A stretch of 64,000 nt of DNA from Gammaproteobacteria bacterium (GCA_016209015.1 JACQWY010000022.1:1-64000), one strand, 5' to 3'; positions 27,834-43,232 are shown, counted from the first letter of the stretch. The notes: generated by a model not told the origin, from the letters alone. A program made the numbers and translations.

Positions 27834-27912
27834 CGTAGGTCCGATTAGCCGCAGGCGTAATCGGACGTTCGTCATCGCGATCGGATCGAGCGTCCCATTA
27901 CGCTGGCTCTAA
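27834..27912. repeat. GTCCGATTA double-hairpin element, copy 2 (right arm degenerate)
   Basis: The left hairpin (CCGTAGGTCCGATTAGCC...TAATCGGACG) is intact. The right arm reads GAGCGTCCCATTACGCTGGC and has lost the terminal ATCGGACCTACG. The element begins 4 bases after the TSUP stop codon. Loss of the outer arm distinguishes this copy from copies 1, 4 and 5. Confidence 0.75.
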
Positions 27913-33041: not shown

Positions 33042-33131
33042 GTCCGTATATTGATTAGCGCCAGCGTAATCGGACGTTCAAGGCGCGGATGGAACGTCCG
33101 ATTACGCCTGCGGCTAACCAACGGACCTGCG
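33037..33131. repeat. GTCCGATTA double-hairpin element, copy 3
   Basis: The copy begins CGTAGGTCCG, has a 5-base insertion (TATTG) before ATTAGCGCCAGCGTAATCGG, and ends CTAACCAACGGACCTGCG, so both outer stems are slightly damaged. The TAG at 33039-33041 is the stop of the preceding zinc hydrolase. It separates convergent genes. Confidence 0.8.
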
Positions 33132-34403: not shown

Positions 34404-34491
34404 CGTAGGTCCGATTAGCCGCAGGCGTAATCGGACGTTCATGGGCTTCGACCCCGAACGTCCGATTACGCTATCGCTAATCGGACCTACG
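34404..34491. repeat. GTCCGATTA double-hairpin element, copy 4
   Basis: An intact copy, CGTAGGTCCGATTAGCC to CTAATCGGACCTACG, in the 336-bp gap 34316-34651 between the divergent M20 and speA genes. Beyond the element the gap holds a possible -10 (TATGCT, 34604-34609) for speA and nothing else recognisable. This is the only copy lying between divergent genes with no adjoining stop codon. Confidence 0.85.
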
Positions 34492-36595: not shown

Positions 36596-36680
36596 GTCCG
36601 ATTAGCGCCAGCGTAATCGGACGCTCGATCGGCAGGCAGAGACGAACGTCCGATTACGCCTGCGGCTAATCGGACCTACG
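36591..36680. repeat. GTCCGATTA double-hairpin element, copy 5
   Basis: An intact copy with both outer arms, CGTAGGTCCGATTAGCG to CTAATCGGACCTACG. It supplies the speA stop codon (TAG at 36593-36595) and separates speA from the convergent anti-sigma gene of the bufferin locus. Confidence 0.85.
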
Positions 36681-36718: not shown

Positions 36719-36955
36719 TCACTCCTCGCGCTGCTGCTCCCGGAGCGCCTTCACGATGCGCTCGACGTGCGCCTCGGCCAAGGCAGGCGGCCGCTTGCGG
36801 CCGAACGCGCCGAGCAGCGTGCGGAACTGGCGCATGAAGCGCCGGCAGTGCGAGCACAGCATGAGATGCAGGCGGAACATCGCCCGCTCGCGGCGGCCGA
36901 GATCGCGCTCGACGTAGGCGCTCGCCCGTTCCGGGATGTCCTTGCACCTCAGCAT
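36719..36955 (-). CDS. Zinc-finger anti-sigma factor (ZAS type)
   Basis: The 78-residue soluble protein carries HxxxCxxC (H30, C34, C37: LHLMLCSHC) of the zinc-associated anti-sigma domain, with a further Cys (C4) that could be a fourth ligand. There is no membrane segment, unlike most anti-ECF factors. Its ATG overlaps the sigma gene stop (ATGCTGA, 7 bases), so both are made in step. It should hold the sigma factor inactive until metal or thiol stress disturbs the zinc site. It belongs to the bufferin locus. Confidence 0.8.
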   Translation of the reverse strand: MLRCKDIPERASAYVERDLGRRERAMFRLHLMLCSHCRRFMRQFRTLLGAFGRKRPPALAEAHVERIVKALREQQREE

Positions 36956-37587
36956 TCGCCCGTGTCCTCATAGTGATCCACCATCTCCATGAGCCGCATG
37001 CGCGCCCGGTGCAGCATCACGCGCACGTTCGGCAGCGACAATGCGAGCGTGCTCGCGATCGCTTCCTGTTCGAGCCCTTCCATGTCGCGCATCGTGAGGA
37101 CGAGGCGCTGCGCCTCGGGCAGCCGGCCGAGATGCCGGTCGACGCAGTCCCACAAGGCCTCGGCCTGCAGCAGCGCGTCCGGCGTCTGCTCGTGCCACTG
37201 CGCGGGCGGCTCGCGCCAGTGACCGTCCGGCAGGAAGCGGCCGTCGAACGGCGGCGCGCGGCCCGTGTCTTCGTCCCGACCCGCGCGGTGCGCGCGCAGG
37301 CGGTTGCGTGCCTTGTTCACGGTGATGCTGATGAGCCAGGTCTTGACGCTCGAGCGGCCCTCGAACGTCGCGATCGCGCCGACGGCGGAGATCCACGCGT
37401 CCTGCACCGCGTCCTCGCAGTCCGCCTCGCCGACGATCGCGCGGGCGACGCTCAGCATCGCCGGCCCGTAACGGCGCACCGCCTCGCGATACGCCGTCGC
37501 CGAGCCGCTGCGCAGCGCCGACAGCAATGCGGAGTCCTCCGGCGGCACGAAAAGCGTCGTGCCGGCTGGCGTCGGATCGCCCGTCAT
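36949..37587 (-). CDS. ECF sigma factor
   Basis: The 212-residue protein has region 2 (YGPAMLSVARAIVGEADCEDAVQD) and the -10 recognition part AISTFEGRSS-like (AIATFEGRSSVKTWL). A linker with an acidic/Pro-rich stretch separates it from region 4 (LPEAQRLVLTMRDMEGL, then NVRVMLHRARMRL). It is cotranscribed with the anti-sigma gene and divergent from doxX-bufA-bufB-bufC, which is the arrangement expected if it drives that operon. ATG 37587 has only a weak GAAAG upstream, consistent with low basal synthesis. Confidence 0.88.
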   Translation of the reverse strand: MTGDPTPAGTTLFVPPEDSALLSALRSGSATAYREAVRRYGPAMLSVARAIVGEADCEDAVQDAWISAVGAIATFEGRSSVKTWLISITVNKARNRLRAHRAGRDEDTGRAPPFDGRFLPDGHWREPPAQWHEQTPDALLQAEALWDCVDRHLGRLPEAQRLVLTMRDMEGLEQEAIASTLALSLPNVRVMLHRARMRLMEMVDHYEDTGEC

Positions 37588-37610
37588 GTTCGTTCTTTCG
37601 ACCCCCGGTT

Positions 37611-37638
37611 GTAAGAAAGGCGCGCGAGCCGTGTCCAA
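37611..37638 (+). promoter_or_regulatory. Candidate ECF-type promoter of the bufferin operon
   Basis: TGTAAGA (about 37610-37616) and GTCCAA (37633-37638) are separated by 16 bases in the 93-bp gap between the divergent sigma gene and doxX. The layout resembles ECF promoters, and the transcript would start about 36 bases before the doxX ATG. This is a pattern-based inference; no second copy is available in the window to test it. Confidence 0.3.
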
Positions 37639-37680
37639 TGCGCGAACACCATGATAGCGGGAATCCGCGGAAGGACAGCC

Positions 37681-38148
37681 ATGCAGCACCTGATTCATCG
37701 CCTCGCGGCCGCACGCCGCGTCATCGTGCGTTACGAGTGGCTCGGCCCGCTCGCCGTGCGCCTCGCGTTCGGATACTTCTGGGCCGAGACCGGCTACGCG
37801 AAGCTCATGAATCTCGACGGCTTCACGGAGCGCTTCGTCGGCTGGGGCATCCCCTGGCCGGCTTTCAGCGCCGCGGTCTCGGCGTGGACCGAGCTCGTCG
37901 GCGGCGTCGCGATCATGCTCGGACTGGCCACGCGCCTCGTCGCGCTGCCCCTGGCCTTCAACATGGTCGTCGCGATCGCGCTCGTCGTGGGCAAGAACGT
38001 GCATGGCCTCGACGAGCTCGTCGAGCTCGACGAGTTCGTCTACATCCTCCTCTTCTTCTGGCTGTTCACGGCCGGCCCGGGGCGCGCGAGCCTCGACGCC
38101 TGGCTCTGGCCGCGCCTCGCCGGGAATGCAATGCGGGGTGGACTGTAA
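37681..38148 (+). CDS. DoxX family membrane protein of the bufferin operon
   Basis: The 155-residue protein has four predicted transmembrane helices and the DoxX motif FGYFWAETGYAKLMNLDGF. It is the first gene of the operon in front of bufA, whereas in the Caulobacter gig/buf operon the DoxX gene is last (BufD/GigD). Its role there is unclear; a redox partner or membrane quinone-linked function is proposed for the family. ATG 37681 has GGAAGGA upstream. The ATG at 37651 upstream is less likely. Confidence 0.85.
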   Translation: MQHLIHRLAAARRVIVRYEWLGPLAVRLAFGYFWAETGYAKLMNLDGFTERFVGWGIPWPAFSAAVSAWTELVGGVAIMLGLATRLVALPLAFNMVVAIALVVGKNVHGLDELVELDEFVYILLFFWLFTAGPGRASLDAWLWPRLAGNAMRGGL

Positions 38149-38220
38149 TAAACGCGAGCGGCGGGTGTCGAATGCCGACCGTTCGCGGTTCGAGGCGCCG
38201 GCCCGGCCGTCGCGCTTTCC

Positions 38221-38243
38221 GGCCCCGGAATCGTTCCGGGGCC
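38221..38243 (+). other. Perfect hairpin upstream of bufA (GGCCCCGGAA...TTCCGGGGCC)
   Basis: A 10-bp perfect stem with loop TCG, 33 bases before the bufA ATG and 18 bases before its TAAGGAG. No T-tract follows (ATTCAAGC), so it is not a standard terminator. It more likely forms a 5' RNA clamp that stabilises a processed bufA transcript. Confidence 0.7.
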
Positions 38244-38275
38244 ATTCAAGCAAGCAAACGTAAGGAGTGAAGACA

Positions 38276-38530
38276 ATGAAGATGAAATCCGCTCGAGCGC
38301 TCGTGTTCGCCACCGCCGCCGCGGCGTTCTTCGGCAGCGGGCTCGCTCAGGCCGCGGACGCCGGCGGCACCGAGGCGAAGATCCATTGCGGCGGCGTGAA
38401 CGCGTGCAAGGGCCAGGGCGCCTGCAAGACCGCGAGCAATGCCTGCAAGGGTCAGAACGCGTGCAAGGGCCAGGGCTTCATGGAAACGACGAAGGCCGAC
38501 TGCGACGCGAAGGGCGGCAAGGCGATGTGA
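38276..38530 (+). CDS. bufA2: Bufferin precursor, BufA2 type (ribosomally made metallophore)
   Basis: The 84-residue precursor has a signal peptide ([20 protein letters not shown], cleavage after AQA, about residue 26) and a small mature part with six cysteines (38, 44, 50, 57, 63, 76). They lie in the repeating pattern [20 protein letters not shown] and so on. This spacing is that of BufA2 bufferins, in which an MNIO enzyme converts cysteines to thiooxazole-type groups that bind copper. No leader cleavage domain other than the signal peptide is seen. TAAGGAG is 8 bases before ATG 38276. Bracketed by two hairpins. Confidence 0.88.
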
Positions 38531-38536
38531 TCGGCA

Positions 38537-38572
38537 GGCAGCGCGGGAGGTCCTCCGGTCTCCCGCGCTGCC
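38537..38572 (+). other. Perfect hairpin between bufA and bufB (GGCAGCGCGGGAG...CTCCCGCGCTGCC)
   Basis: A 13-bp perfect stem with a 10-nt loop starts 7 bases after the bufA stop and ends 14 bases before the bufB ATG. It lacks a T-tract and lies close to the bufB ribosome-binding site (AAGGA). It can act as an attenuator or 3' stabiliser, raising precursor over enzyme. Confidence 0.75.
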
Positions 38573-38586
38573 GTCGCGAAGGAATC

Positions 38587-39429
38587 ATGAGCATGAAGAA
38601 CCCGCAATGCGCCGGATTCGGTCTCGGGCTCCGGCCGCCGCACTACGAGGCGCTGCTCGACGGACCGGTGTCCGTCGACTGGCTCGAGATCATCACCGAG
38701 AACTATCTCGTCGCCGGCGGCCGCCCGCTGCATTCGCTCGATCGCATCCGCGAGCGCTATCCGCTCGTCATGCACGGCGTGTCGCTGTCGATCGGCGGCA
38801 CCGATCCGCTCGACTTCGATTATCTGCGGCGCGTGAAAGCGCTCGCCGCGCGTGTCGGGCCCGGGTGGATATCCGATCACCTGTGCTGGACGGGCGTCGA
38901 CGGCGTGAACCTCCACGATCTGATGCCTCTGCCGTACACCGAGGAGGCCTTGCAGCACGTCGTCGCGAGAATCGCGCAAGTGCAGGATTTCCTCGGGCGG
39001 CAGATCCTGATCGAGAATCCCTCGAGCTATGTCGCGTATGCCGAATCGACGCTGAGCGAGCGCGATTTCATCGTCGCGATGGCGGAGGAGGCGGACTGCG
39101 GGATCCTGCTCGACGTGAACAACGTCTATGTCAGCGCGCACAATCACGGCTTCGATCCGCGGCGCTATCTCGACGCGCTGCCGGCGGCGCGCATCCGCCA
39201 GATCCACCTCGCGGGCCACAGCGTGCAGGGCGCGCTGCTCGTCGACACCCACGACGCGCCGGTGTGCGAAGGCGTCTGGTCGCTCTATGCGCAAGCCGTC
39301 GCGCGCTTCGGTGCGGTGCCGGCGATGATCGAGCGCGACGACGACATCCCGCCGCTCGAGACCCTGCTCGCGGAGCTCGACCGCGCGCGGCGCGTCGTCG
39401 CGGACCTCACGCTGGACATCGCGGTATGA
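38587..39429 (+). CDS. bufB: Bufferin-modifying MNIO (DUF692) iron oxidase
   Basis: The 280-residue TIM-barrel protein matches DUF692 multinuclear non-haem iron oxidases. Likely ligands are H63 (MHGVSLS), H98 (SDHLCW), E143 (IENPSSY), D176 ([10 protein letters not shown]), H185/H187, H207/H211 (QIHLAGH), and E249 (IERDDD). It oxidises precursor cysteines using Fe and O2. ATG 38587 has AAGGA upstream; the ATG 6 bases later is possible. Its stop overlaps the bufC start (ATGA). Confidence 0.93.
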
Positions 39430-40199
39430 GCCTCGCGGAGCTGCAGCGCCGTTTCGCCGCCCGGGTCCGCGACCCCTCGCGCAGCGAGGCGGAGTTCGCG
39501 CTCGGCACGTCTGCGGCCCCGGCCGCCGAGCGCGTCGGGATCTATGTCCATGCCTATCGCGCCCGCGCCGTCGAGGCGCTCGCCACGGACTTTCCGACGC
39601 TGCAGTCCTGGCTCGGCGGTGAGCGCTTCACCGCACTCGTGGACGACTATCTCCACGCCCATCCCTCGCACAGTTTCACGTTGCGGGATCTCGGCGCCGC
39701 CCTGCCCGCGTTCCTGCGCGGCCGGGGCCGGCGTACCGCGGATCGTCTCGCCCACGAGCTCGCGGCGTTCGAATGGGCGCTGTGTCACGCGTTCGACGCG
39801 CCGGACGTGACGCCGCTCGAGGCTGTCGCGCTCGCGGCGATCGCGCCCGAGGACTGGCCGGACCTGCACTTCACGCTGCAGCCCGCGCTGCGGCGGCTCA
39901 CGCTCACGACGAATGCCGTGGCGATCTGGCAGGCGCGGGCGTCGGGCGAAGCGCTGCCCGCGGCGCGGCACGTGCGTGCCGGGCAGGCGTGGGTCGTCTG
40001 GCGACAGGATCTGCGCCCGATGTATCGCGCGCTCGATGCGATCGAGATCGCGGCGCTCGATACGGTGTGCGAGGGCGCGTCGTTCGGCGGGATGTGCAGT
40101 GCGCTCGCGGCGCGGCTTCCGGACGAGGCGGTGCCGCTGCGCGCCGCGGAATACCTGCAGCGCTGGGTCGCCGGCGGGCTCGTCGTCGCCGCCGGGTGA
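39426..40199 (+). CDS. bufC: Bufferin maturation partner BufC (DUF2063)
   Basis: The 257-residue protein has the DUF2063 N-terminal domain ([12 protein letters not shown], then [15 protein letters not shown], and ALxAFLRG-like), followed by a helical C-terminal domain with WRQD and ALAARLPDE. It binds the MNIO partner and presents the precursor. Overlap of ATG with the bufB TGA indicates coupled synthesis of the heterodimer. Convergent with pirin, with a 13-bp gap and no hairpin. Confidence 0.88.
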
Positions 40200-40212: not shown

Positions 40213-41073
40213 TCAGCGCTCGTCCGGCAGCGGAATGAACTCCGGATCCCCCGGCACGCCCGGAAAGCCGCCTTCGCGCCAGCGCCGCTTCGCCGCGTCG
40301 ATGCGATGCGAGTCGCTCGCGACGAAGTTCCACCAGAGGCGCCGCGTGCCGATCGGCTCACCGCCGAGCAGCAGCAGCACGGCGGGCTCGAGCGCATCGA
40401 GATAGAGCGTGTGCCCGGGCTCGAAGACCGCGAGCGTCTGCGGCGGGATCTCCGTCCCCGCGCTCGCGACGCGCCCCGAGACGACGTAAGCGGCCCGTTC
40501 GGGATATTCGGGCCCGAGCTCGAAACGCATCTGCCGCGCGAGTTTCAGCACCGCGCAGCAGAGCGGCGAGTGCACCGGTGTCGGCGCCTCGCGATCGAAG
40601 CCGCGGCCGGCGAGCAGGCGCAGATCGATGCCGGGCGCGATCACGCGCGGCAGCTCGCGCTCCTCGAGATGATGGAACGAAGGCGCGACGTCCTCCGCAC
40701 CGTCGGGCAGGGCGACCCAGATCTGGAGACCATGCACGCGATGTCCCGCCGCGCGCAGCGCGTCGGGGCTGCGTTCGGAGTGCACGATCCCGGATCCCGC
40801 CGTCATCCAGTTCACCGCGCCGGGATCGATCTGTTGCGCGTGGCCGAGACTGTCGCGGTGCATGAACGCACCTTCGAAAAGATACGTGAGCGTCGAGAGG
40901 CCGATGTGGGGATGCGGCCGCACGTCGATGCCGCGGCCGGGCGGGAACGTGTCCGGGCCGACGTGATCGAGGAACGCGAACGGGCCGACCATGGCGCGTT
41001 CGGGGGCGGGCAGCACGCGTTTGACGACGATCTCGCCGAGCGATTGCGACTTCGGACGCAGCACTGTGAGCAT
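40213..41073 (-). CDS. Pirin family protein
   Basis: The 286-residue bicupin protein has the Pirin N-terminal metal cluster RPHPHIGLSTLTYLFEG and the later MTAGSGIVHSE with ligand residues His and Glu. Pirins are iron proteins, some with quercetinase activity, some acting as redox cofactors of transcription. ATG 41073 was chosen over an upstream start since MLTVLRPK begins the conserved domain; GGGAGG is present 8-10 bases upstream. Convergent with bufC and not obviously part of the bufferin system, although both involve iron/oxygen chemistry. Confidence 0.88.
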   Translation of the reverse strand: MLTVLRPKSQSLGEIVVKRVLPAPERAMVGPFAFLDHVGPDTFPPGRGIDVRPHPHIGLSTLTYLFEGAFMHRDSLGHAQQIDPGAVNWMTAGSGIVHSERSPDALRAAGHRVHGLQIWVALPDGAEDVAPSFHHLEERELPRVIAPGIDLRLLAGRGFDREAPTPVHSPLCCAVLKLARQMRFELGPEYPERAAYVVSGRVASAGTEIPPQTLAVFEPGHTLYLDALEPAVLLLLGGEPIGTRRLWWNFVASDSHRIDAAKRRWREGGFPGVPGDPEFIPLPDER

Positions 41074-41292
41074 GGGGCACCTCCCAGGGATCGGTCGTGT
41101 CATTGGACACCAGAGACCGGGAGCGTGCCAGGGTGGGGGCGGGTGTCCGGCGCCCGGCGCGGCGGGGATGATCCGGGAGCGCGCGGGCGGCGTATGACTG
41201 ACGGATGACCGGATCTGCGCGAACCTACCGGCGTATTCCCTCCCCGGCGGCCGTGACGCGGCGCCGGCTCCGGCGCCCGTTTCGATGACTTC

Positions 41293-43034: not shown

Positions 43035-43232
43035 CGATCGATGCGCCTCCTGCGTCGGCACATCTATGAATGACCGTAGGTCCGTATTGATTAGCGCCAG
43101 CGTAATCGGACGTTCGTCTGCGCGTGCGAATTGAGCGTCCGATTACGCCTGCGGCTAATCGGACCGACGCAATCGATCGCAACGATCGTCGGCGCCGGAC
43201 AGCCGCTCGATCGATGCGCCTCCTGCGTCGGC
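43035..43232. repeat. 25-bp direct repeat bracketing palindromic element 6
   Basis: CGATCGATGCGCCTCCTGCG followed by TCGGC occurs at 43035-43059 and again, base for base, at 43208-43232. The two copies flank the GTCCGATTA element at 43075-43169, at distances of 15 and 38 bases. This may reflect a short duplication around the insertion. Confidence 0.65.
43075..43169. repeat. GTCCGATTA double-hairpin element, copy 6
   Basis: A copy with a 4-base insertion (TATT) early in the left arm (CGTAGGTCCGTATTGATTAGC) and an altered right end (ATCGGACCGACGC). It lies between the SDR start codon and the sirtuin stop. The insertion is at the same place as in copy 3, suggesting a shared subtype. Confidence 0.8.

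Follow-up and report, generated by a model that had tools for sequence, protein, structure and literature searches.

Predicted control of a Buf2 bufferin operon by an adjoining ECF sigma factor and soluble ZAS anti-sigma factor in a gammaproteobacterial genome

The DNA analyzed (hereafter the window) is a stretch of 64,000 nt from Gammaproteobacteria bacterium (GCA_016209015.1, JACQWY010000022.1:1-64000), whose genome comprises 5.7 Mb. Six genes, all with intact frames, occupy positions 36719–40199. On the minus strand are a gene for a ZAS anti-sigma factor (36719–36955, 78 amino acids) and one for an ECF sigma factor (36949–37587, 212 amino acids), the end of the latter overlapping the start of the former by 7 nt. 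On the plus strand are doxX, encoding a DoxX-family membrane protein (37681–38148, 155 amino acids), bufA2, encoding a bufferin precursor (38276–38530, 84 amino acids), bufB, encoding an MNIO maturase (38587–39429, 280 amino acids), and bufC, encoding a DUF2063 partner protein of PME type 1 (39426–40199, 257 amino acids), with the bufB and bufC frames overlapping by 4 nt. Gene calls and profiles agree with a preliminary description of this DNA, which had placed the same six genes at these positions, sigma and anti-sigma factor reading leftward and DoxX, precursor, MNIO and DUF2063 protein rightward. The right-hand neighbor is a pirin gene (40213–41103) convergent with bufC; the left-hand neighbor, from reading the sequence, is what we take to be an arginine-decarboxylase-like gene. 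REP-like inverted pairs of GTCCGATTACGC were observed at 36611–36659, 33064–33107, 34425–34471, 43100–43148 and also 27855–27903; perfect pairs number 15 genome-wide, one of them lying just downstream of the ZAS gene.

The profile searches that the preliminary description had proposed (DUF692/MNIO, DUF2063, DoxX and ZAS) were run, and Pfam and NCBIfam models matched all of these, the Pfam matches at the locus being DoxX, DUF2063, MbnB_TglH_ChrH, Sigma70_r2/r4_2 and zf-HC2. BufA2 was matched by NCBIfam NF050166 (88.2 bits, cut-off 60, E-value 3e-25) and BufB by NF050167 (392.8 bits, cut-off 310, E-value 7e-118); since both exceed curated cut-offs, the match of the locus lies far beyond chance. 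BufB also aligns along its length with the solved MNIO structure 3BWW. BufC scored 81 bits with PF09836 (cut-off 27) and 53 bits with NCBIfam HvfC, under the cut-off of 142, and DoxX is near HvfX at 69.8 bits, under the cut-off of 80. The BufB-type MNIO gene is directly 3′ of the precursor gene, and the DUF2063 partner gene directly 3′ of that. As read from its sequence, BufA2 consists of a Sec-type signal peptide followed by six Cys residues; the CKGQ repeats said to characterize it are present, with the spacing CKGQ-xx-CK and not CKGQ-x-CK as had been given. A perfect hairpin in the doxX/bufA2 gap (GGCCCCGGAA-TCG-TTCCGGGGCC, 38221–38243, plus strand) is without a T-run and is a possible processing or attenuation element, and the search of the locus region for a terminator found none. 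A tRNA-Arg predicted by ARAGORN at 39136–39226 (minus strand) lies on the opposite strand inside bufB and was taken as a false positive. Judged by sequence, the locus is a genuine, intact Buf2 bufferin (captophorin) operon, as the preliminary description held, with ordinary enzymes and an ordinary precursor. What is unusual is the combination of an ECF-ZAS pair with a Buf2 precursor: regulation differs, and no new system is involved.

The sigma factor was matched by the sigma70-ECF model TIGR02937 (78.7 bits, cut-off 42.9), and the anti-sigma factor by NCBIfam NF052368 (59.1 bits, cut-off 50) and Pfam zf-HC2. The latter protein carries the zinc ligands C4, H30, C34 and C37 (an N-terminal Cys plus H-x3-C-x2-C), which are invariant among 16 homologs, and contains no other Cys and no membrane segment; ligands, absence of a membrane segment and adjacency to an ECF gene are the sequence features of a soluble ZAS of the RsrA/MseR type, bearing out the original assignment. 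The window sigma factor is without the region-4 Cys, Asn/Lys and Ser residues conserved in its relatives, and may drive additional genes via variant sites. Loss of these residues would also fit a decayed or inactive locus, but this is very improbable, as none of the six frames is broken, BufA2 and BufB are well over cut-off, the zinc ligands are kept and the predicted promoter described below is intact.

That promoter, which the preliminary description did not include, is sigma-E-like and is predicted to serve doxX-bufA2-bufB-bufC (37611–37645, plus strand). It consists of a -35 element GTAAGAAAG (37611–37619), a 12-nt spacer, a -10 element TGTCCAAT (37632–37639) and a start A at 37645, 36 nt 5′ of the doxX start. 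The neisserial sigma-E consensus is GTMAGBWTT, 12-13 nt, CGTCTAAH and an A six bases further (PMC2893595). The window sequence agrees with it in the core GTAAG and GTCYAA, in spacing and in the +1 A, and differs at several flanking positions and at a single base of the -10 element (GTCCAAT versus GTCTAA). The pattern GTAAS-N16-18-RTCYAAT has two matches in the 5.7-Mb genome, one being that of the window, a count that is no blind test because the degenerate letters were partly loosened from the window and from locus L070, introduced below. The other match (contig C65, 953–980) was rejected, being antisense and between a tRNA and the 23S rRNA; no further plausible site of the pattern was found in the genome. 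The window's sigma gene showed no autoregulatory promoter of its own.

The distribution of the ECF-ZAS pair was examined in relatives. The taxonomic order of the window comprises 36 genomes in one family, and BufA2 is rare across it. Among 24 family members searched, no close relative of the window's sigma factor was found, and outside the family the best matches are 38-39% identical. The same pair occurs in one of the 80 nearest BufB loci from named genomes, L070, from a groundwater gammaproteobacterium, where it is convergent with bufA2BC. A class-wide ZAS search of 369 genomes gave 63 ECF-ZAS loci, 20 of them near captophorin genes or doxX. BufA2 is the neighbor in three (the window, L070 and L179), BufA1 in L173, L174, L268, L289 and L276, an EGKCG precursor in L128, L167, L257, L267, L279, L284, L294 and L295, and doxX alone, in some cases several kb off, in L263, L273, L288 and L292. 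The custom BufA2 profile also caught BufA1 in L173 and L174, which were reassigned by their EKCYG motif. In L184 (EGKCG), ZAS is present and an ECF gene was not detected by the profile used. At the Buf2 locus L179 the module is divergent; its anti-sigma factor is longer, with an apparent membrane anchor, which leaves the window and L070 as the only loci pairing a short soluble ZAS with Buf2. Both L070 and L179 carry the strict promoter motif 5′ of bufA2.

Several loci have other arrangements. The window's own genome (G000) contains four further MNIO genes on contigs C65, C28 and C36 (L123–L126), and one of these loci, L124, forms a second set of bufA2-bufB-bufC that lacks doxX, a linked sigma gene and a strict-pattern match. 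The Buf2 loci L106 (4932–6686) and L130 (4723–6477) encode a natural BufB-BufC fusion in a 585-amino-acid frame (MNIO plus DUF2063-like), with a different ECF sigma gene directly 3′. Steroidobacter-type Buf2 loci L076 (5914–7300) and L083 (5890–7120) are without a detectable DUF2063 gene, and their Buf2 genes converge on another ECF gene accompanied by a gene for a membrane-anchored zinc-finger-like anti-sigma factor.

A linked sigma gene is missing from most Buf2 loci, 43 of the 63 ECF-ZAS homologs have neither a captophorin gene nor doxX inside the fetched flanks, and the L124 set has neither a linked sigma gene nor a strict-pattern match. These observations would be expected if the ECF-ZAS pair were a chance neighbor, with another regulator driving doxX-bufA2BC and the sigma factor serving other genes. 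This reading is nevertheless improbable, given a divergent predicted promoter of the right type between ECF-ZAS and doxX, the lack of any other plausible site across the genome, and linkage that is repeated in separate loci.

Upstream regions (250 bp) of 81 bufA2 genes were searched for the motif. In sense orientation it was found in strict form in 3 loci and in strict or medium form in 5, and neither the antisense motif nor the reversed pattern was found in any. Over whole loci (80 loci), the strict motif showed no excess (5 matches versus 6 for the reversed-pattern control); enrichment is confined to the position 5′ of bufA2. Four of the five motif-bearing loci have no sigma gene inside the fetched flanks. 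A ZAS is encoded elsewhere in all four genomes with such an unlinked motif, versus 4 of 21 motif-less controls (Fisher p ∼0.006, calculated by hand); of the four ZAS matches, two are weak (E ∼1e-10). These results support, without proving, that the motif upstream of bufA2 belongs to the sigma family of the module. Buf2 is not invariably part of the regulon, since the unlinked bufA2 genes L187–L191 have no motif, or a loose form only, despite ZAS in their genomes.

The same promoter motif is spelled within homologous ECF genes by the region-4 codons for C-[NK]-x-L-x-x-S-x-S-N. This intragenic element, GTAA-N18-NTCYAA, occurs in L128, L167–L180, L183, L185, L070 and L209–L244, ∼70 nt 5′ of the ZAS start; the window's sigma gene has lost it (GCGAGC...CCGAAC). 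TGT encodes the region-4 Cys in 44 of 45 cases, against 21 of 93 elsewhere within the same genes, and TCT or TCC encodes the Ser in 39 of 42, against 182 of 658 elsewhere. Other codon columns are likewise conserved, partly through relatedness, so the test to trust is that with one gene per family, in which the broad motif was found in 13 of 14 genes versus 0.5 expected under synonymous codon redraw (0 of 20,000 draws as high). Retained against synonymous drift, the element is a candidate autoregulatory promoter that would serve the anti-sigma gene. There is precedent for this idea, as an intragenic sigma-dependent promoter of the anti-sigma gene has been demonstrated experimentally for Corynebacterium sigH-rshA (PMC3489674); no literature report of one was found for the present ECF-ZAS group.

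In a tree of the 63 ECF sequences, the linkage types form no clean clades. One clade of 27 sequences (support 100/100) unites the three BufA2-linked sigma factors, that of the window included, with others linked to EGKCG or BufA1 precursors; the regulator is thus retained as precursor type changes. A joint reading, to which we give even weight for and against, is that ECF-ZAS acts as a general switch for RiPPs that buffer copper, irrespective of precursor, serving Buf1, Buf2 and EGKCG in turn. In most lineages of the module the region-4 codons, ∼70 nt 5′ of the anti-sigma gene, would hold a promoter that the sigma factor itself recognizes. Once active, the sigma factor would in this way drive synthesis of its inhibitor and, in certain genomes, expression of the peptide operon further downstream; the window would be a derived case, its internal site lost and a separate divergent promoter present.

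For the window itself, the Buf2 operon is probably under the control of the local ECF sigma factor and cytoplasmic ZAS. The curated-family matches, the doxX promoter, recurrence in L070 and L179, the regulon test, the ECF tree and precedent in Neisseria and Haemophilus all favor this. In an unstressed cell, zinc-bound ZAS would hold the sigma factor; on thiol-reactive stress (from excess copper or some other soft metal, or from oxidants, for example HOCl) it would let go, and the freed sigma factor would transcribe doxX-bufA2-bufB-bufC. BufC would present the precursor to BufB, which would oxidize the BufA2 cysteines, to 5-thiooxazoles by analogy. Sec would export the peptide, periplasmic copper binding would follow, and DoxX would assist from the membrane. 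It is possible, if rather unlikely, that the product handles a target other than copper, such as chromium, cadmium or gold, metals reported in connection with related operons, or oxidants like HOCl, with cysteine heterocycles as sacrificial thiols: chromium and cadmium elicit a response from the sigma-F bufferin operons of Caulobacter (PMC3511200) and Haemophilus RpoE2 responds to HOCl (PMC7907618). However, characterized bufferins/captophorins bind copper and protect against it (PMC12452194, PMC12668002), and the window locus has no feature specifying another metal.

The literature consulted contains no description of what activates Buf2 bufferins, which form one of the two bufferin families. 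The window and its relatives offer a candidate switch, consisting of a sigma factor, its anti-sigma factor and a promoter with predicted start site. From the motif, membership of unlinked bufferin genes in such regulons can be predicted, and a first small test agreed. The window and its relatives also connect the rpoE-type regulons of Neisseria and Haemophilus, by way of a single kind of regulator, with peptides that buffer copper.

Bufferins/captophorins are secreted, copper-binding peptides whose cysteines are oxidized by an MNIO and a DUF2063 partner (PMC12452194, PMC12668002); the modification chemistry of Buf2 has been characterized preliminarily. The window shares with described Buf2 bufferins (same references) the six-Cys secreted precursor, BufB-type MNIO, DUF2063 partner, bufA-bufB-bufC order and presence of doxX, and differs in its adjoining ECF sigma and ZAS genes and in having doxX first. 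Caulobacter sigma-F and the membrane protein NrsF control two bufferin operons with precursors annotated DUF2282 (PMC3511200). That sigF-nrsF/gig system resembles the window in having a bufferin operon beside an ECF sigma gene that controls it (at the window, by prediction), and differs in its membrane NrsF, DUF2282 (Buf1) precursor, last-placed doxX and promoter GTAACC-N16-CGAA; at the window locus there is no DUF2282 match, and the anti-sigma factor is zf-HC2, not NrsF. A doxX-first order and a tiny soluble ZAS, put forward in the preliminary description as departures, are indeed absent from the Caulobacter operon, but are not new, since Neisseria (PMC2893595) and Haemophilus (PMC7907618) have both, with EGKCG-type precursors. 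In Neisseria NMB2140-2145, doxX is followed by three genes, now recognizable as those for precursor, MNIO and partner, and then by rpoE and the gene for the soluble ZAS MseR, for which peroxide, diamide and singlet oxygen are not signals (PMC2893595). This operon shares with the window the doxX-first order and the ECF and soluble ZAS (Cys4, H-x3-C-x2-C), and the predicted promoter of the window resembles its promoter in core and spacing; its precursor is of EGKCG type, and its sigma and ZAS genes come last in one operon whereas those of the window are divergent. In Haemophilus influenzae, RpoE2/HrsE, with a 67-amino-acid anti-sigma factor, controls a doxX-first operon (hvf; PMC7907618), so that a small soluble anti-sigma factor and a doxX-precursor-MNIO-DUF2063 operon, sigma-dependent there and predicted to be so at the window, are again shared; there the sigma gene does not adjoin the target operon, and the precursor is an oxazolin (EGKCG). 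The 2025 survey of MNIO clusters reported sigma/anti-sigma genes in Buf1 clusters and not in Buf2 (PMC12452194), and it is against this survey that the departure overlooked in the preliminary description stands out, namely an ECF-ZAS pair with a Buf2 precursor.
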